NCBI RefSeq assembly: GCF_015775515.1
Contig: NZ_CP065383.1
Location: 868,001 to 932,000, forward strand
Source of the DNA: Atribacter laminatus
GTDB lineage: Bacteria; Atribacterota; Atribacteria; Atribacterales; Atribacteraceae
Length of the DNA: 64,000 nt
Direction of reading: 5' to 3'
Below the pieces are notes generated by a model. The model ran no database searches. It had not been told where the DNA came from and saw only the letters and a list, made by a program, of their open reading frames with translations. Both the position numbers and the translations under genes were made by a program. This document shows, one piece after another, positions 14,795-55,016 of the stretch (position 1 is its first letter; every line of letters begins with the position of its first letter).

Positions 14795-14937
14795 ATAAAA
14801 GAATGCGATACTATTTTAAGGAGTAATTTAGTGCTCGTCAAGGCATGATTTAAATTCGGGAGGGTTATCTTGTTTCCAATAAACTGGGCTCTTAAATTTT
14901 TTGAAAAAAGAGTATAATTATGGAAGGAGGTGAGAGA

Positions 14938-15819
14938 TTGAAAAAAGTTGTATTTATAGTAGTTTTGCTTGTGTTGGTTTTGTCTTTACCGGTTTGTGCT
15001 GAAGAAAGAATAGAAATAATTCATTCTGAAATAGCTCGAATTGCTTCTGCTTTAAAAGGTGAATATGCCCTGGGAAAACCTGTTATTATTGGGGAACTGA
15101 CAATTATCCCAGTAGTAAAAACCAATGTCTTGTCTTTTGGCAGCGATAAAAGCTCTTCTTTTCAAATGATTTTTGGTGGAATAAGTCTTGAACCAGTTGC
15201 TATATTAGTGATTAAAGACGGGAAATTTCAGATTTATAATATTGGTGAGCCCGATGCCGGTGTTGGTGAAATATTTGAAACTCTTCCAGGGTTATTACCC
15301 CAAACTCAAACCCTTTCTGAGGATGCGAAACAGGAATTGATTAAAAAAGGGAGGGAAAGTCTTCAAAAAAAGGATTTTGAGAAAGCAAAAAAAATTTTTG
15401 AAGATCTTCTAGAAAATAATCCAGAACTTGCCGATGCTCATGCTCTCTTAGGACAAGCATTAGGAGAACTTGCTCAGTCTACCGCAGATCTTAACAAGAA
15501 AATTCAATATGGGATGGAAGCCTTTCGGGAGTTTGCTCGTGCCTTAGAAATTGAACCAGATAATCCTTATGCTTTAGTTGCCAGGGGATATGCTCGATTG
15601 ATGGTTCCCCCTCCTTTGGGGGGAGTTGATGCTGCCATCGAAGATTTTAATCTGGTGATCAATAGTCACCCTGAATTTATTGACGCCTATATTGGTTTAG
15701 CTAAAGCGTATAGCAAAAAGGGAGATCAGAATAAAGCCAAGGAATATTTTAATAAAGTCCTTGAACTAGACCCCGAGAATGCTCAAGCTATTGAGGGTTT
15801 GTCAAGAGTGGGTGAGTAA
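14938..15819 (+). CDS. Secreted YtfJ/GerW-like domain protein with TPR repeats
   Basis: A frame is open from ATG 14920, but GGAGGTGAGAGA sits 7 bp before TTG 14938. That start gives the signal peptide KKVVFIVVLLVLVLSLPVCA and about 293 aa. Residues 35-105 match the YtfJ/GerW pattern (LGKPVIIGELTIIPVVKT, then GGISLEPVAILVIKDGKFQI). Residues 140-290 hold at least three tetratricopeptide repeats, including DAYIGLAKAYSKKGDQNKAK. The family is best known as sporulation protein YtfJ, but this one is exported and fused to a protein-interaction domain. The next gene has the same domain alone, so they probably interact. Function unknown. Confidence 0.75.
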   Translation: MKKVVFIVVLLVLVLSLPVCAEERIEIIHSEIARIASALKGEYALGKPVIIGELTIIPVVKTNVLSFGSDKSSSFQMIFGGISLEPVAILVIKDGKFQIYNIGEPDAGVGEIFETLPGLLPQTQTLSEDAKQELIKKGRESLQKKDFEKAKKIFEDLLENNPELADAHALLGQALGELAQSTADLNKKIQYGMEAFREFARALEIEPDNPYALVARGYARLMVPPPLGGVDAAIEDFNLVINSHPEFIDAYIGLAKAYSKKGDQNKAKEYFNKVLELDPENAQAIEGLSRVGE

Positions 15820-15922
15820 AGGATAATTATTTGAAAAAATTCATAGATTGAAAACAACTTTATTATAAAAAAATGATACGTTAAATGGATTCTAATTAGA
15901 AAGTAATTTGGAGGTGATAGGT

Positions 15923-16426
15923 GTGAGAAAAGCAGTTTTAATAAGTTTAATTGGGTTGATGGTTTTGGTTTTGGGAAGTTTGGGATGGTCTCAAGAAAGC
16001 GTATCTAACGATATCATAACTTTAATGGATGCGGTATTATCAAAAATGACTCAAATGGTTCAACCCAATACCCTCATTGGAGCACCAATTCAAGTGGGAG
16101 ACGTGACAGTGGTACCAGTGATTAAGGTTGATGTTGGATTTGGTGGAGGTGGTGGCCTTGGTATGCCAGCTGGTCAACCTTCCGGTGGAGGGACTGGTGG
16201 GGGCATTACCATGGAACCAGTTTCATTTTTAGTTATTCAAGAAGGCAAAGTTACTCTGCTTTCAGCAACTACTCCGGTTTCGCCCTGGAAGGACATTATT
16301 GAAACAGCAATGCCCATGATAATGCAGGGCGTACAGGGAATGTCTGGGATGTCAGCGGCGGATATGTATGATTATGAATATGAACCAACAGAAGAACCGA
16401 TAATGAGTCCAGTACCAGAAGAATAA
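15923..16426 (+). CDS. Secreted YtfJ/GerW-domain protein
   Basis: The start is GTG 15923, placed by TTGGAGGTGATAG just upstream. The frame is open earlier, from TTG 15908. The 167-aa product has a signal peptide ending near GWSQ. It then carries the full family core: LIGAPIQVGDVTVVPVIKVD, a glycine-rich stretch with four GGG groups, and TMEPVSFLVIQEGKVTLL. The C-terminal tail is rich in M, P and E. It lies 103 bp after its TPR-fused paralogue, and a strong terminator closes the pair. Whether the host sporulates cannot be told here. Confidence 0.8.
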   Translation: MRKAVLISLIGLMVLVLGSLGWSQESVSNDIITLMDAVLSKMTQMVQPNTLIGAPIQVGDVTVVPVIKVDVGFGGGGGLGMPAGQPSGGGTGGGITMEPVSFLVIQEGKVTLLSATTPVSPWKDIIETAMPMIMQGVQGMSGMSAADMYDYEYEPTEEPIMSPVPEE

Positions 16427-16474
16427 TAACTCTTTGATAAACTTAACAAACTTAGAAGCTTAAAGTGTTATTGT

Positions 16475-16507
16475 GGCGGGTATGTAATACCCGCCATCCT
16501 TTTTTTG
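16475..16507 (+). terminator. Terminator of the GerW-domain gene pair
   Basis: A perfect 9-bp stem GGCGGGTAT-GTA-ATACCCGCC is followed after ATC by CTTTTTTTG. It is 48 bp after the stop codon. Confidence 0.92.
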
Positions 16508-16644: not shown

Positions 16645-17886
16645 ATGAATTTGTCTTATACAAAAAAAGTATTTCCATCGGGCTTGAAAGTCGTATTTCG
16701 TCGGATGAAATCACCTTTAGTGACTTTGAATCTTTGGGCAAGAGTTGGAGTTAAGGATGAAGAACCAGTGCAAATTGGAATCTCTCATTTTTTTGAGCAT
16801 ATGGTTTTTAAGGGTACGACCAATTACCCGGGATTAGAACTATCAAGGCAGGTTCAAGCCATTGGTGGCAATATTAATGCTGGCACTTCCTTGGACACCA
16901 CGGATTTTTATATTGTTGTCCCTTATAATCATTGGGAGAAATCATTAGAGCTAATTATCGATTTAGTTCGCAATCCACTTTTTGATCCTATTGAAATCGA
17001 ACGTGAGAAAAAAGTAATCATTCAGGAAATACATATAGATGAAGACGACCCGGAAGAAAAACTCGCTATCACTCTTTATCATGAAGTTTTTTCCGGAACT
17101 CCTTATGAACGTTCAATATTGGGGTCAAAGGATACCATTGCTCACTTGAAAAGGGAGAACTTCATATGCCACCAGGAATCCTTTTACCACCCCTCAAATC
17201 TTACCTTGGTAGTCTGTGGAGACCTATCTGAAAACCAGTTGTTCGAGAAAATAGATCTATTTTTCAAAAATGGGGGAAAACCACTACAGAATTTGTTTAA
17301 CTCCTTTCCTCCCCTTCCTAAGGTACAAAGAAAAAGAATCGAAATCAACATGGACATTCACCATCATTATGGAGCTATTGGATTTTTAGGCCCAGGTATT
17401 CGGCAAGATGATTTTTGCCTGCTCAAACTTTTATCGATTATCCTTGGAGATGGAATCGACTCCCGTCTCAATGCCCGACTGAGGGAAAGAGAACAGTTGG
17501 TTGACTCAATTCATACCAACTTTTCTTTTTATCAAGAATCTGGAATTTTCAGCATCATATTCACCTTTGCCAATAGCGACCCAAAAATAATTGAAGCAAC
17601 AATTCAAGAAGAATGTGAGCTGTTATTAAATTATACCCCTCAAGATATTGAAATAAATCGAGCTAAAAACCTTTTATTGAGCGGCTTTTATCATTCTATT
17701 GAAACGACCTTAGGAAGCGCCGAATTATTGGGACGTTTAGATACTATTGATACCATTGATACCATTTTTCGGTATTTGAAGAATATACAAAATATTCAGA
17801 CCAAACAGATAATTGATGTTTTAAAAAAGTATCTTGATTTTAATTTTGCAATCAGTGTTATTATCAATCCCGAGGATCATCGATGA
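16645..17886 (+). CDS. M16-family zinc peptidase, catalytic subunit
   Basis: This 413-aa M16B peptidase (pitrilysin/processing-peptidase superfamily) has the inverted zinc motif HFFEH (H48, E51, H52). The third ligand E128 lies 77 residues beyond E51 in VIIQEIHIDE, exactly the family spacing. No signal peptide is seen. The second half (about 180-410) is the non-catalytic lobe. It overlaps the following homologue by 4 bp (ATGA). Two half-size subunits, one catalytic and one without the zinc motif, form the active clamshell in known bacterial M16B heterodimers. Substrates are probably small peptides. Confidence 0.93.
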   Translation: MNLSYTKKVFPSGLKVVFRRMKSPLVTLNLWARVGVKDEEPVQIGISHFFEHMVFKGTTNYPGLELSRQVQAIGGNINAGTSLDTTDFYIVVPYNHWEKSLELIIDLVRNPLFDPIEIEREKKVIIQEIHIDEDDPEEKLAITLYHEVFSGTPYERSILGSKDTIAHLKRENFICHQESFYHPSNLTLVVCGDLSENQLFEKIDLFFKNGGKPLQNLFNSFPPLPKVQRKRIEINMDIHHHYGAIGFLGPGIRQDDFCLLKLLSIILGDGIDSRLNARLREREQLVDSIHTNFSFYQESGIFSIIFTFANSDPKIIEATIQEECELLLNYTPQDIEINRAKNLLLSGFYHSIETTLGSAELLGRLDTIDTIDTIFRYLKNIQNIQTKQIIDVLKKYLDFNFAISVIINPEDHR

Positions 17887-19130
17887 ACGAATTACAACAG
17901 CAGGTAGAAAAAGTGCGCTTGAAAAACGGTTTAACCCTCTTATTTCTCTCTATTCCTGATTCTTTGTTGTGCTCAATCCATCTTTGCTTGGCTATGGGAA
18001 ATTTATTCGAAAACGAAAAAGAAAGAGGCCTTTCAGCGCTTTTACAGGAAGCATTTGTAAAAGGGACCCTAACTAAAGATGCGATTACTTTCAATCGTGA
18101 AATTGAATCTCTTGGCGCATCAATAGAAAGCTCATCAAATAGTTTTGTTGGAAAGATTGCCATTGAAGGACCAAACGAGCAAATATTTGCTATTCTTGCT
18201 CTTTTCTTCGAATTAATTAAGAGTCCAGCTCTGAGAAAAGAGGAAATAGAAAAAGAAAAAAGATTTTTAATCGAGCAGCTTGCTGCTCTTGACGACGATC
18301 CTCTCAAGGCGGCTCTTCTCCGCTTCAAAAAAGGTTTTTATGGAACTCACCCTTATGGATCATCAACCCTTGGAGAACCTGATTGTCTGAAAACCTTTAC
18401 TGAAAAAAAAGTATTGGATTGGCATCGTCGCTGGTATGTTCCCAATAATATGGTTATTGCAGTAGTAGGTAATTTTGATCTTAGCAAGATGAAGGATGTA
18501 TTTCTGCATCAAATGGGAGATCTCATACCTCAAGAGATAAAGTCTTTCAAGGAAGAAAACTTTTATCCTTTATCTTTACGAATTGTAGAACAAAAGGATA
18601 TTCAGGATAATTGGATGGTTATTGGTTACCGAGCACCTTCCCTTTTTGATGTTCGGGGAAGAATAGCTTTTGAACTTTTGTCGAACTGCTTAGGAGGAAG
18701 CATGTATTCCCGGCTTTTTTTAAAAGTTCGCGAAGAATTAGGGTTAAGTTACCAAGTCGGTTCAGTTTATGTTCCTTTTATTGGGCCTTCATTTATTTGC
18801 GCTTACGCCGGCTTTTCTTATCCACACTTTGAAGAGATTGTTCAGATTTTGCGAAAGGAGTTCCATAATTTAATGTTTATGAATTCAATAGAACTGGAAG
18901 AAACAAAAAATTACACACTTGGTATGTATTTGAGTCGTTTTGAAACTGTATATTCACTCTCTTCAATGATATCTTTTTTTGAAAGAATTGGTTTAGGATG
19001 GGATTTTCCTTTTAAATATCAAGAATTAATACAGAGTATGTCCCTGGAAGAGGCCTTAAGTATATATAATAAGTATGAGGGTGAGGGAGAAACCTTGGGA
19101 GCAGTGGTTTCTTCTCGATTGGAAAAATAA
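17883..19130 (+). CDS. M16-family peptidase-like, non-catalytic subunit
   Basis: This 415-aa homologue of the upstream peptidase lacks the zinc site. The region where HxxEH should be reads GLSALLQEAFVKG, with both histidines gone. It keeps the RY-type region (GGSMYSRLFLKVREELGLSY, about residues 270-289) that shapes the substrate pocket from the partner subunit. Together with the 4-bp overlap this indicates an obligate heterodimer in which the first gene gives zinc chemistry and this one gives substrate contacts. A 19-bp-stem terminator follows. Confidence 0.9.
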   Translation: MNELQQQVEKVRLKNGLTLLFLSIPDSLLCSIHLCLAMGNLFENEKERGLSALLQEAFVKGTLTKDAITFNREIESLGASIESSSNSFVGKIAIEGPNEQIFAILALFFELIKSPALRKEEIEKEKRFLIEQLAALDDDPLKAALLRFKKGFYGTHPYGSSTLGEPDCLKTFTEKKVLDWHRRWYVPNNMVIAVVGNFDLSKMKDVFLHQMGDLIPQEIKSFKEENFYPLSLRIVEQKDIQDNWMVIGYRAPSLFDVRGRIAFELLSNCLGGSMYSRLFLKVREELGLSYQVGSVYVPFIGPSFICAYAGFSYPHFEEIVQILRKEFHNLMFMNSIELEETKNYTLGMYLSRFETVYSLSSMISFFERIGLGWDFPFKYQELIQSMSLEEALSIYNKYEGEGETLGAVVSSRLEK

Positions 19131-19368: not shown

Positions 19369-19447
19369 CGGGGCGTAGCGCAGTTTGGTTTAGCGCACCT
19401 GCCTTGGGCGCAGGGGGCCGGAGGTTCAAATCCTCTCGCCCCGACCA
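19369..19447 (+). tRNA. tRNA-Pro (TGG), copy 1
   Basis: This 79-nt tRNA has acceptor CGGGGCG/CGCCCCG, discriminator A and encoded CCA. Anticodon stem CCTGC/GCAGG encloses CTTGGGC, giving anticodon TGG. TATAAT lies 11 bp upstream. An identical copy lies at 54938-55016, and the identity extends over 97 bp (19356-19452 and 54925-55021). Confidence 0.95.
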
Positions 19448-21451: not shown

Positions 21452-23386
21452 CTAATTCACAAAATAGACATTTGCACCGTTATTTTCGTCACCACCACCA
21501 TGAATATTTCCAGAGATAGTGTTGCCAGCTATGGGTGATACATCAGGAGGTAAGTTCTCACGACCAACTCCCCAGCCTCCAGGTCGAACATCATTTGGTA
21601 GAAGATTGCAGTTAGGGATTACGAAAATCCCACCACCTAACCCAGCTGTTATGTTGTTGTTGATGAAGTTATTCATAATTAATGGGTTAGAGTTATTATA
21701 AACTCGAATTCCACCGCCACCATTAATATTACTCGCTATGTTGTTGCTAATTACGTTGGACTCGATTATGGGGTTGCAACAATTATTTACATCAATCCCA
21801 CCACCGCCACCATTTATTGCTGTGTTGCCCGTGATGGTATTGTTAGAAATTAATGGAGAACAAACATAATAAACTCGAATTCCACCGCCAGATCGTGCTG
21901 TGTTGTCTGTGATGGTGTTATAAGAAATAGTTGGAGAACAAGAACCATAATAACCATCCATACCGATTCCCCCTCCCCCTCCCCCGGCAGATCCATTTGC
22001 ACTGTTACCAGTGATAGTATTATTTTTAATATCTGGGTGGGAATAATTCTTAACGAAAATCCCGCCACCACTATCTGTTGCTGTATTATTTATAATTTTG
22101 TTGTTTTCGATAGTGGGGGAACTAGCATTAACATAAATCCCACCACCATTATCTGCAGATCCATTTTGAATGGTAAATCCTTGCAGGGATGAGGTATCAC
22201 CTCCGGTGAACTGAACGACAGAACCACTATTACCACCATCGATAATCGTAGCAGTAACAATAGTAGGGTTAGAAGGATCAGTGCTTCGAAGGGTAATGTT
22301 TTTATTATTAATTATGAGGTTTTCAGAGTAGGTTCCCGGACAGACGATGATGGTATCCCCGGTTGATGCAGCATCAATAGCCGCCTGGATGGTATCGTAA
22401 TCGGTACCTGTAGTAGCATTGTATGCTTTTCTTGCTGAAAAATTAGCTGTTACCGTTTTATCGCCATCCATGGTGATCGTGGTAGAAGAAATGTTGGGAT
22501 TAGCCGCTTCACCGGTCCAGTCAACAAACTGGTAACAACCTGCCGGAGTGGCATTGATGTCGACAACGGTATTCTCATCATAGGTATGGTCACCTACAGC
22601 GGGAGTGGTTGTCCCTCCTCCTTGGGGGTTCACCGCCATCGTGAGGGTGTACTGGGTTGGTGGTGTTGGAGTCGGAGTCGGTGTCGGTGTTGGAGTCGGA
22701 GTCGGTGTCGGTGTTGGAGTCGGAGTTGGAGTCGGTGTCGGTGTTGGTGTAACAATTACACTTGGAGCAATGGGAATATGAAAATGAATTTTGACATAAT
22801 TCTTTGCCAGTTGGATGACTGCACTATCTTTTTGGGCATCTCGACAGTTAGAAAGAACAGCTTTCACCGCATCGAGGAGATTTTGAGGAATGGTCTCAAT
22901 GGGAATGGCAGTCAAGATATCTTTGATGGGGATCAAACCGGATTGTAAGGATTCAACAACTTCCCAGATAATCACTTGAGTGGTGGTTATGGAGTTGGTT
23001 TCCCCTCCATCACTGGTAGTTGGGGAGATGGCTATCTTGATCCAAACCTCTCCACGGTTAGCATAGAGAAGATAAGCCTCATCGGTGAGTCCAGAGATCT
23101 CATATTCACCTTGGCAGTTGGTTTTGCCGGTGAGGATTTGGCCATTATTGCCTTTGAGAAGAATATCGGCATTGGGAAGAGGCTCTCCTTCGGTGATTGA
23201 GGAATTATTACAAATATCGGTGAAGCATTCATTATCAGGGGTTACCACGACTCCTTTGATGGTGAAGGTGTTATCGGTTGTTCCGGTTGATGAAGTTCCA
23301 GAATGAAAACCTCTGGTACAGCTACTAATGAAAACTATCAAAACGAGTACGGTCAAAACTACCAGCCAAATCCTAAACCTTTTCAA
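21452..23386 (-). CDS. Surface lipoprotein with PT linker and beta-helix, copy 1
   Basis: The 644-aa product starts at TTG with AGGGAGGGAC upstream. Residues 1-23 are a signal with lipobox ISSC. Residues 35-125 look like a carboxypeptidase-regulatory/SdrD-B-type beta-sandwich (IKGVVV, GEYEISGL). A Pro-Thr linker of about 15 units (residues 212-241) leads to one bacterial repeat domain (YTLTMAVNPQGGG to KTVTANF). Residues about 320-640 form a right-handed parallel beta-helix with recurring NNTITGN and GGGI units, as in DUF1565/NosD-type adhesins or polysaccharide-binding proteins. No catalytic residues are evident. A longer paralogue lies at 41045-43363. IS elements sit on both sides of this copy. 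Confidence 0.8.
   Translation of the reverse strand: MKRFRIWLVVLTVLVLIVFISSCTRGFHSGTSSTGTTDNTFTIKGVVVTPDNECFTDICNNSSITEGEPLPNADILLKGNNGQILTGKTNCQGEYEISGLTDEAYLLYANRGEVWIKIAISPTTSDGGETNSITTTQVIIWEVVESLQSGLIPIKDILTAIPIETIPQNLLDAVKAVLSNCRDAQKDSAVIQLAKNYVKIHFHIPIAPSVIVTPTPTPTPTPTPTPTPTPTPTPTPTPTPTPPTQYTLTMAVNPQGGGTTTPAVGDHTYDENTVVDINATPAGCYQFVDWTGEAANPNISSTTITMDGDKTVTANFSARKAYNATTGTDYDTIQAAIDAASTGDTIIVCPGTYSENLIINNKNITLRSTDPSNPTIVTATIIDGGNSGSVVQFTGGDTSSLQGFTIQNGSADNGGGIYVNASSPTIENNKIINNTATDSGGGIFVKNYSHPDIKNNTITGNSANGSAGGGGGGIGMDGYYGSCSPTISYNTITDNTARSGGGIRVYYVCSPLISNNTITGNTAINGGGGGIDVNNCCNPIIESNVISNNIASNINGGGGIRVYNNSNPLIMNNFINNNITAGLGGGIFVIPNCNLLPNDVRPGGWGVGRENLPPDVSPIAGNTISGNIHGGGDENNGANVYFVN
22661..22750 (-). 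repeat. Pro-Thr-coding microsatellite of lipoprotein 1
   Basis: Tandem GGTGT(C/T)/GGAGT(C/T)-type hexamers encode alternating Thr-Pro. Units are multiples of 3, so slippage changes linker length without shifting the frame. Confidence 0.85.
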
Positions 23387-43363: not shown

Positions 43364-46037
43364 AATAGTCCCTCCCATATTATAAAAACCAATTTCTACT
43401 ATTATAGTTAATAAAATTACAAATAGAAAAGTAGAAAGAAGATTATTTAAGCAAATCAGAAGGATTAATTTCTGATCAATAATATCTAAGGATGATACAA
43501 TTGTCATGACTTTGTGGTTCATTTTATTCTCTGATGAGTTATTTATGTCTTTTGATACAACAAATTCGAAGCTCTTGTTGGTTATCTCCTCGCTTTCATT
43601 CCAATAAAAATGGTGGGCTTTCAACAATTTTTAGATATAGTTTTGCGGTTAAGGAAGAAATATCAACAGTCCAAGAGACTTTGGTTTTAGCTATTTTCTT
43701 TCTGATCATTGCCTCCATGTCGAGAAAGTTTATATCGTTGGGGAATAATTGGTAAGGCTTCTTGGGACAGATGCCGGCATCTAGAGTTAAGAGAATGAAG
43801 CAAGAATTGAGAAGACCGATAAAGGTTTTTTTATCAGGCAAGATGAGAAGTTTTTGATAAGCTCTTCTGTTAGATTTTTATCTTTTCCTTCATCCTTTCT
43901 CTAGAAAAAGTGAATAGGATTCCTGGAAAGGACTCCTGTTTTTACCAAGCAAGAGAAGAATGAAATCAAATAGGTTCTCTGGACGTTAAGGGGAGCTGGG
44001 GGCAATTTCTGAAGTTGAGAAATACTCGTTGACCCTTTCCCAGAGTGATAGCTCGTCGTCAATATCATCTTGGTAACTTTGGAAAAAGAGGTTGATATGT
44101 AATTTACAATCCCGAATGGTTCTTTTCTCGTAATCCTTGAATTTTCTTATCTGTAGTAAAATCTGAGAGACATTTATTCCAGTTTATTGTATTTAAGAGT
44201 TGAATGGCTCTTGCCATTTATAAAAACCTCTTTCTGAAGAACGCTGGATTCAAAATTTTTATTAAAAGGAAGAGTTTAAAATATGGCTTTATAAAGCGAA
44301 TAAGCTTAATAGGTCAGAGCGCTGGACTGTGGACTGTGGCTCCAGGGGTTGGGGGTTCAAGTCTCCTTCACGAACCCCACTTGTTATTCAGCTTCATAGA
44401 GCTAAATATACGTTTATTTTTATTCGTATTGCACACTCCAAAACTTACGAATCCATGATAGCCTCTTCAAATGATTCGTGATATTCGAACGCTAAGTATA
44501 TAATTCAGCTAACCAAATTAAATGCCTTCATAGGGTCATTAATTGAGAATTAACATATAAATAGCCTCCATTCTAAGAGATATTAAACAAAGAGAGTTTT
44601 AGGAAAGTAATGTTAAATCATAATCTATAAAACCATAGAATTATTGACATCAAGATTGATTAGTTAAGGTAACTGTAGGAGTGGATTAAGGTTTGAGATG
44701 ATTGCATTAGGATGGTTGGCCGGTTTAAAGATGAAAAATGTGGGAAAAGTTAATTCGTCTCATCCATTTAAACCAACGAAGACATTGTCCTAAAATATAT
44801 TGAGATAAAGGAAAAGGAAGATTCAGGAGGAGTGTAATTTAAATTATTTCAAGTATCCTGCAGGTTAATGCAGCGGGTATCTATTCATGCAGAACTCATT
44901 TTCAAGGGACAATTTAATTGAATAAGAACCATATAGTAGTGTATAGTATAATAAATTTGAGATAAGAAGGGCTGTTTTGCTGGATGATTTTGGTTCAAAA
45001 GCTATCTTTTAGACGAAAATATCCACACTTGTTTACTAAACATTTGAATATTAGGTTTTGGTTCTTTGGTGTGGGTCATATCTCCATTAAATCAGACAAA
45101 AATGCTTATGTTTTACCAGATGAAATCACTAACAAGATTTAGAAATTTATTGTTTTGGGTTCTCGTAAAGCCGGATTTTTTAATAAAGAATTGGTATGTT
45201 CACGATTTGCTTATCTCTAGATGTGTTTTGCAAAAGAACTTCTTTCAAAAAGTTCATTTCTAAAAAACCATCCTTTGGGATTGAATTTCCAAATGATTAA
45301 CGATATGAAACTATGATTCAAGTTTTGTAATCTTTAATAGATAATTTGAAGGTATAACATAGCACTCCTCAGTTTTTTAGGTATGAAAAATTTAATGTTG
45401 GCATTTTAAATGATACTCATTACCATGGTATAAAAGTTCAATCAACTTTGAGAAGATATCTCGTTTTAGATATTGCCGTAATTATAGAGTTGAACACTTA
45501 GAATTAATCAATAAACGAAAATACGAAATGAAGATTTCAATACATGGTTAATTGTTAACGAGTGAAATATAGATACAATTTAGAAAATAATTACTGAGTA
45601 GATGAAAAGAATTGTATAATTTTACTTAGTCCCTTGATCGTGTGATTTGTAAAGAAAGGTATCTCATTCTGATTATCAAGATTTTAGAACTCATTCGGTT
45701 TAAAGATCTCATATACCAGCAGGTGTTGCTCATAACAACCATGCCTCGGTGTTTAATGAGTTCCCCCATGGCTTCCTTCCTATTTTTTAAGATATTTTCA
45801 AAGTTAAAAACGGAAACTGTACCAACACCTTTTATAAAAAGCAGTTCATGAGCAGCCACTTTTGCCAACGGTTAATCTACTCCATAACAGCGGGTAATGG
45901 CAATATATTAGAGATTATTGTAGAGAAAGGATTGGCTTGAGCCCTTAATCAACGCGTTTACTTTTTAGATAAACGGACATTTTTATATATAAATAAAACA
46001 GGCTAATCGAAATGACCTTATAAAAAGGAGATTGAAA
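43364..46037. other. 2.7-kb degenerate region with gene remnants
   Basis: There is no complete gene. At 43500-43841 the minus strand holds two abutting open frames in different phases that look like one frameshifted protein (SSLTAKLYLK continuing as LKAHHFYWNESEEITN). A broken tRNA-His lies at 44294-44382. Short frames at 44204, 45066 and 45626 have no ribosome-binding sites. The last 10 bp carry AAGGAG for the following gene. Confidence 0.5.
44294..44382 (+). pseudogene. tRNA-His pseudogene with 7-bp tandem duplication
   Basis: The D-arm (AGCTTAATAGGTCAGAGC), anticodon arm and T-arm (GGGGGTTCAAGTCTCCT) of a tRNA are present. GGACTGT is repeated in tandem (44324-44330 and 44331-44337). With one copy removed the anticodon arm is CTGGA-CTGTGGC-TCCAG, a perfect His (GTG) arm. 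The acceptor arms no longer pair. A CCCCA is present at the 3' side. Confidence 0.7.
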
Positions 46038-54937: not shown

Positions 54938-55016
54938 CGGGGCGTAGCGCAGTTTGGTTTAGCGCACCTGCCTTGGGCGCAGGGGGCCGGAGGTTCAAAT
55001 CCTCTCGCCCCGACCA
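54938..55016 (+). tRNA. tRNA-Pro (TGG), copy 2
   Basis: Identical in all 79 nt to the copy at 19369-19447, with 13 identical bases upstream and 5 downstream (97-bp identical block). Anticodon TGG, CCA encoded. Confidence 0.95.

Follow-up and report, generated by a model that had tools for sequence, protein, structure and literature searches.

A conserved tandem pair of exported-looking GerW/YtfJ proteins, one fused to tetratricopeptide repeats, in Atribacter laminatus and its family

In Bacillus, GerW is reported to be a soluble protein expressed in the forespore (PMC4366231). What, then, might two neighbouring genes of the GerW/YtfJ family be doing in Atribacter laminatus RT761, which is described as a Gram-negative, non-spore-forming bacterium that is unusual in its signal peptides and has three membrane-like layers (PMC7736352)? 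The genes lie in the 64,000-nucleotide stretch of DNA analysed here (the window), which falls within a single contig of 3,101,225 bases; at 3.1 Mb, the RT761 genome is the largest of the Atribacterota in one survey (PMC11227167). A sequence-only reading of the window had proposed that both proteins are exported, that one of them is fused to tetratricopeptide repeats (TPRs), and that the two form an envelope complex outside the sporulation context. We find that the pair is genuine and represents a conserved variant within a known family, and that the wider pattern, comprising recurrent exported-looking pairs of a degenerate and a canonical GerW together with a linkage to M16 peptidase genes, is the more useful finding.

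Both genes are present as that reading had placed them (Table 1), and each matches the Pfam family PF09579 (Spore_YtfJ) above its curated cut-off of 25 bits, gene 1 with 27.9 bits and gene 2 with 59 bits. Several Pfam TPR families match gene 1 above cut-off, the best with an E-value of 5e-15, confirming the proposed fusion. In a structure model of gene 1, the TPR part (pLDDT about 90) folds into helical repeats that matched solved TPR structures in a fold search, with TPR-type matches among the best 50 matches listed, and the GerW domain is modelled at a pLDDT of about 60. The model of gene 2 is poor (mean pLDDT 45.9), and a sequence search of the PDB for a solved GerW-domain structure returned no credible relative. 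Alignments show that gene 1 is without both of the Gly-rich loops that gene 2 has, GFGGGGG and GGGTGGG. This split extends to relatives: the 11 canonical exported-looking copies compared retain the loops, whereas in the 12 fused copies they have shrunk or disappeared. The TIGR02874 equivalog model scores gene 2 at 54.8 bits, below its required 116.3 bits, and is absent for gene 1 among the best 25 of the 41 family matches listed.

Table 1 Features of the GerW locus and the genes that follow it (positions in the window).
Feature	Position	Strand	Details
Ribosome-binding site of gene 1, AAGGAGGTGA	14924..14933	+	from sequence
Gene 1, exported-looking GerW-TPR fusion, TTG start, 293 aa	14938..15819	+	
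Gene 1 putative Sec signal peptide, LKKVVFIVVLLVLVLSLPVCA	14938..15000	+	hydropathy
Gene 1 degenerate GerW domain, without Gly-rich loops	15091..15294	+	PF09579 residues 52-119, alignments
Gene 1 TPR region including invariant PPPLGG segment	15322..15810	+	
Ribosome-binding site of gene 2, GGAGGTGAT	15910..15918	+	from sequence
Gene 2, exported-looking canonical GerW, GTG start, 167 aa	15923..16426	+	
Gene 2 putative Sec signal peptide	15923..15991	+	hydropathy
Gene 2 canonical GerW domain	16088..16309	+	PF09579 residues 56-129, 59 bits
Gene 2 Gly loops, GFGGGGG and GGGTGGG	16136-16156; 16184-16204	+	
Intrinsic terminator 3' of the GerW pair	16473..16507	+	11-bp stem 16473-16497 plus T run
M16 peptidase, catalytic subunit, HFFEH plus downstream E, no signal peptide seen	16645..17886	+	
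M16 peptidase, non-catalytic subunit, R...Y motif, no HxxEH at site	17883..19130	+	

The N-termini of both proteins begin with K/R residues followed by a very hydrophobic core, as judged by hydropathy and by eye, and Ala-type cleavage sites can be seen by eye in relatives of both. Genes 1 and 2 thus encode putatively Sec-exported proteins, as had been proposed. The possibility that gene 1 encodes a lipoprotein was considered and rejected, since most relatives have Trp or a different residue in place of the Cys near its cleavage site.

The family name, and the fact that Bacillus expresses gerW specifically in the forespore (PMC4366231), might suggest that the locus is left over from sporulation or germination machinery. 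We consider this very improbable. Searches of the whole genome gave no match to the SpoIVA (ATPase), Spo0A_C or SASP families, each of which was detected in the B. subtilis control, and the hosts are described as non-spore-forming. There is also no forespore-type promoter directly upstream of gene 1, as judged with sigma-F-like and sigma-G-like consensus patterns; with the same patterns, one sigma-F-like match lies beyond a tRNA gene, ~500 bases before gene 1, and the sigma-G-like matches near the locus all fall inside the genes. Even in Bacillus, GerW is reported to be dispensable for germination, and its proposed role was not upheld (PMC4366231). The idea of a sporulation relic is therefore rejected, within the limits of a test with three hallmark families. 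Across the window, the sigma-F-like pattern is commoner than in shuffled sequence, occurring at 13 places against a mean of 5.6.

The claim that the pair stands outside sporulation holds in that the three hallmark families gave no match, but it singles out nothing special, as PF09579 matches occur in many bacteria and in Methanosarcina. A metaproteome of 'Ca. Methanoperedens' is reported to include a YtfJ protein (PMC11337218), and the regulated genes reported for Fibrobacter succinogenes include one for YtfJ (PMC5442110). Because the Methanoperedens and Fibrobacter examples are already published, GerW outside sporulation is not new. In B. subtilis, GerW has been listed as an RNA-binding protein (PMC12456014). 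Both Atribacter proteins resemble Bacillus subtilis GerW/YtfJ (PF09579, TIGR02874) in carrying a GerW domain, in which gene 2 keeps the Gly-rich loops; unlike the Bacillus protein, the Atribacter copies look exported, are paired, include one fused to TPRs, and reside in a host in which no sporulation hallmark was detected. Among the GerW/YtfJ papers listed, none dealt, by its title or abstract opening, with a GerW that is exported, paired or fused to TPRs.

The host genome contains a third GerW gene, L001 (G000:C1:14226-14465, minus strand), encoding a protein of 126 aa that scores 69 bits and lies beside a DUF2953 gene. This cytosolic DUF2953-YtfJ arrangement has the same GerW domain as the pair, but no signal peptide. 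The gene, which was possibly acquired, was not found in the other five genomes of the host's genus, all drafts, and a transposase-like frame lies near it. In plasmid searches, the cytosolic copy found matches in Ilyobacter and Subdoligranulum, and gene 2 found none.

The tandem arrangement is strongly conserved close to home. Among 50 Atribacterota genomes, 14 have PF09579 matches, and the GerW tandem pair, in the same order as in the window, is kept in all ten genomes of the host's family, counting G007, where a contig end cuts off the start of gene 1 (loci L022-L028 are the same records as G004, G003, G002, G005, G008, G007 and G009 and were counted once). Protein identity between the window copies and their family relatives ranges from 38 to 95%, so the two genes are not chance reading frames. 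In G006, G008 and G009 the two GerW genes overlap.

Beyond the host's family, a profile of gene 1 detected near-full-length fusions in two further families, f3 (G022) and f4 (G023 and G024). Among the matches listed, the remaining hits were TPR-only or GerW-only, and there was no fusion in the 12 genomes of family f2. Canonical GerW was not detected by PF09579 in the one f3 genome or the two f4 genomes, and the f3 fusion has no second exported GerW beside it. Since f3 and f4 keep gene 1 without a canonical partner, gene 1 can work without gene 2. In f4, the gene directly upstream of the fusion encodes an exported-looking DUF4097/Toastrack protein (L061:10105-10992; L060:6682-7569). Toastrack/DUF4097 proteins also occur in PSP-like envelope stress systems; there they are predicted to be intracellular (PMC11237479), whereas the f4 protein opens with a signal-like segment. 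A term search of the text of that paper found no occurrence of GerW or YtfJ. Conservation of the tandem pair across one Atribacterota family, and of the GerW-TPR fusion in two more, is new here.

Downstream of the pair, two genes that overlap by 4 bases encode a putative cytosolic two-subunit M16 peptidase. Mitochondrial MPP is a two-subunit M16 peptidase, and the genes at this locus resemble both the MPP type and Bacillus YfmF/YfmH in having HxxEH in one subunit and R...Y in the other. They nonetheless fall below the NCBIfam cut-offs for these Bacillus proteins, scoring 112 of the required 250 for YfmH and 91.6 of 285 for YfmF, and they differ from other two-subunit M16 peptidases in their linkage to an exported-looking GerW-TPR protein. 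The motifs are well kept: the first subunit has HxxEH in 16 of 16 copies, and the second lacks HxxEH at that site and has R...Y in all 15 that are readable, the sixteenth (G003) being cut by a contig end. The sequence-only reading made no mention of the M16 genes after the GerW pair, and we found no literature linking an M16 peptidase with Atribacter.

The M16 pair directly follows the fusion locus wherever contigs allow, in 12 of 12 readable genomes from three families, and this is new here. The fusion is carried by 13 genomes, of which G001 was excluded from the downstream comparison as its two gene pairs lie on different contigs. Neighbours on the other side vary among the loci compared, with a sugar ABC transporter upstream in the host's genus and NAD-biosynthesis-like genes in G006, as judged by eye.

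This linkage allows the locus to be read differently, with GerW-TPR and the two M16 genes as the conserved unit, an envelope or peptide quality-control module, with the second GerW as an accessory specific to one family. In such a module the TPR protein would capture exported proteins or peptides, and peptide degradation would fall to the cytosolic M16 dimer. As the second GerW is missing from f3 and f4, this is the main rival to an envelope complex of the two GerW proteins, although we still regard it as rather unlikely. It gains from the persistence of the M16 pair in 12 of 12 genomes despite differing upstream neighbours, from the retention of both M16 motifs, and from the f4 loci, in which another exported-looking protein, DUF4097/Toastrack, precedes gene 1. 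Three observations count against it. An orthologous M16 pair occurs without the fusion in the f2 loci examined, beside an aminotransferase or sugar-isomerase-like gene, so M16 does not need GerW-TPR. With no signal peptide seen on either M16 protein, the peptidase would sit on the opposite side of the membrane from GerW-TPR. Lastly, a terminator-like hairpin parts the two gene pairs in most of the host's family.

That hairpin, with its T run, occurs in the gap behind gene 2 in 7 of the 9 host-family genomes that can be read here (G001 is unreadable), its stem being near-identical in six of the seven, and in the window it occurs as a single copy. G008 and G009 have almost no gap at this point, the GerW gene running straight into the M16 genes, and no hairpin was found in the corresponding gaps of f3 and f4. 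The private terminator ascribed to the pair is hence a feature of the host and most of its family, not a general one. The M16 genes are evolutionarily linked to the GerW genes but probably transcribed apart from them in most of the host's family.

Further along the window lie two tRNA-Pro genes that share both anticodon (tgg) and score (19369-19447 and 54938-55016), and a partial tRNA-like match at 44303-44367 (30.9 bits, model positions 9-63), uncalled by ARAGORN, may be a tRNA remnant. The product of the minus-strand gene at 21452-23386, possibly a surface protein, looks exported by eye and carries a long Thr-Pro repeat as well as parallel-beta-helix-like repeats.

To place the pair in a broader setting, we examined GerW outside the phylum. 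Of 386 genomes sampled, 57 had PF09579 matches, and 43 of those were outside Atribacterota. Two surveys outside the phylum covered largely the same genomes, and their counts were not added. A tandem GerW pair was seen in 2 of the 43 genomes, G147 and G097, and also in G386, a close relative of G147 (2 of 4 genomes of that phylum). None of the 25 further GerW loci examined outside Atribacterota has a hydrophobic N-terminus, and GerW proteins sampled in other phyla thus appear to be mostly cytosolic.

The three outside pairs are built alike. The first gene encodes a protein with a hydrophobic N-terminus, a weak GerW domain scoring just under the cut-off of 25 on the protein (22.5 bits in G147, 22.3 in G097) and a C-terminal hydrophobic block of about five segments, as counted in G147 and G097; the second encodes a short, exported-looking canonical GerW (41.6 bits in G147, 57.3 in G097). 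They share with the Atribacter pair the order of a degenerate fused GerW followed by a short canonical one, but differ from it in that the extra module is multi-TM and not TPR. The neighbourhood differs as well, with rhomboid and SDH-type protease genes near the G147 pair, and the same frames in G386, in place of the M16 genes of Atribacter. The GerW-TPR fusion itself, sought in other phyla, was not seen outside Atribacterota, in a search that included a named-contig scan with two TPR-region peptide patterns, which distant fusions may escape; what does recur there is the similar paired logic. Its presence, as predicted from the proteins, in three genomes of two lineages outside the phylum is new here.

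In a tree of GerW domains with tails (48 sequences, 121 columns), members of the outside pairs group together with 97% support, apart from the Atribacterota copies, which suggests separate duplications. Six of the 25 outside loci (L100, L104, L107, L111, L112 and L114) were left out of this tree, as were the fused copies of G001, G003, G007 and G023 and the canonical copies of G001 and G003. With tails included, a single-duplication tree is rejected by the AU test (p 0.015) and not by the SH test (0.203); when the 88 columns of the domain are used by themselves, the AU test no longer rejects it (0.157). Given this disagreement and the domain-only result, we do not claim an independent origin, and the data suggest, at most, independent duplications of the outside and Atribacterota pairs.

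These comparisons also bear on the possibility that genes 1 and 2 are simply tandem duplicates whose products do different jobs and never bind each other, for which the M16 linkage would be neutral. The two GerW domains are still 71% identical in DNA over 55 nt, as this would allow. Yet the gene order, and the split between a loop-less fused copy and a short canonical one, have stayed stable over much divergence and recur outside the phylum, making an arrangement of this kind improbable in our view.

The reading we prefer, with a probability of about 45% and so a little short of even odds, is that the two proteins form a hetero-oligomeric complex in the envelope, with the degenerate GerW tethering the canonical GerW to a scaffold or membrane. 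Both proteins would leave the cytoplasm via the Sec route, as their N-termini suggest. The canonical, Gly-rich GerW of gene 2 would be the working subunit, the degenerate domain of gene 1 may pair with it, and the TPR array of gene 1 could offer an envelope docking surface for a client protein. Since other lineages carry a multi-pass membrane module at the same position, tethering GerW to something may be the general role of gene 1. Such a complex is supported by the tandem pair in 10 of 10 family genomes, the gene overlaps, the recurrence outside the phylum, the division of the Gly loops between the two copies, the modelled TPR fold and the lack of hydrophobic N-termini in the 25 other loci; it is weakened by the f3 and f4 genomes, which keep gene 1 without a canonical GerW, and by the low confidence of the GerW part in both structure models.

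A bolder reading, which we offer tentatively and think doubtful, is that GerW is, fundamentally, an assembly domain associated with the envelope or a membrane and not a spore protein, and that exported hetero-pairs of a canonical Gly-loop copy and a loop-less tether, by TPR or membrane, arose independently at least twice. For annotation, the automatic label 'sporulation protein' misleads at this locus. An exported-looking, paired and scaffold-fused form in a cultivable, non-sporulating host, described as having an unusual multilayered envelope (PMC7736352), may offer a handle on the function of the GerW domain.
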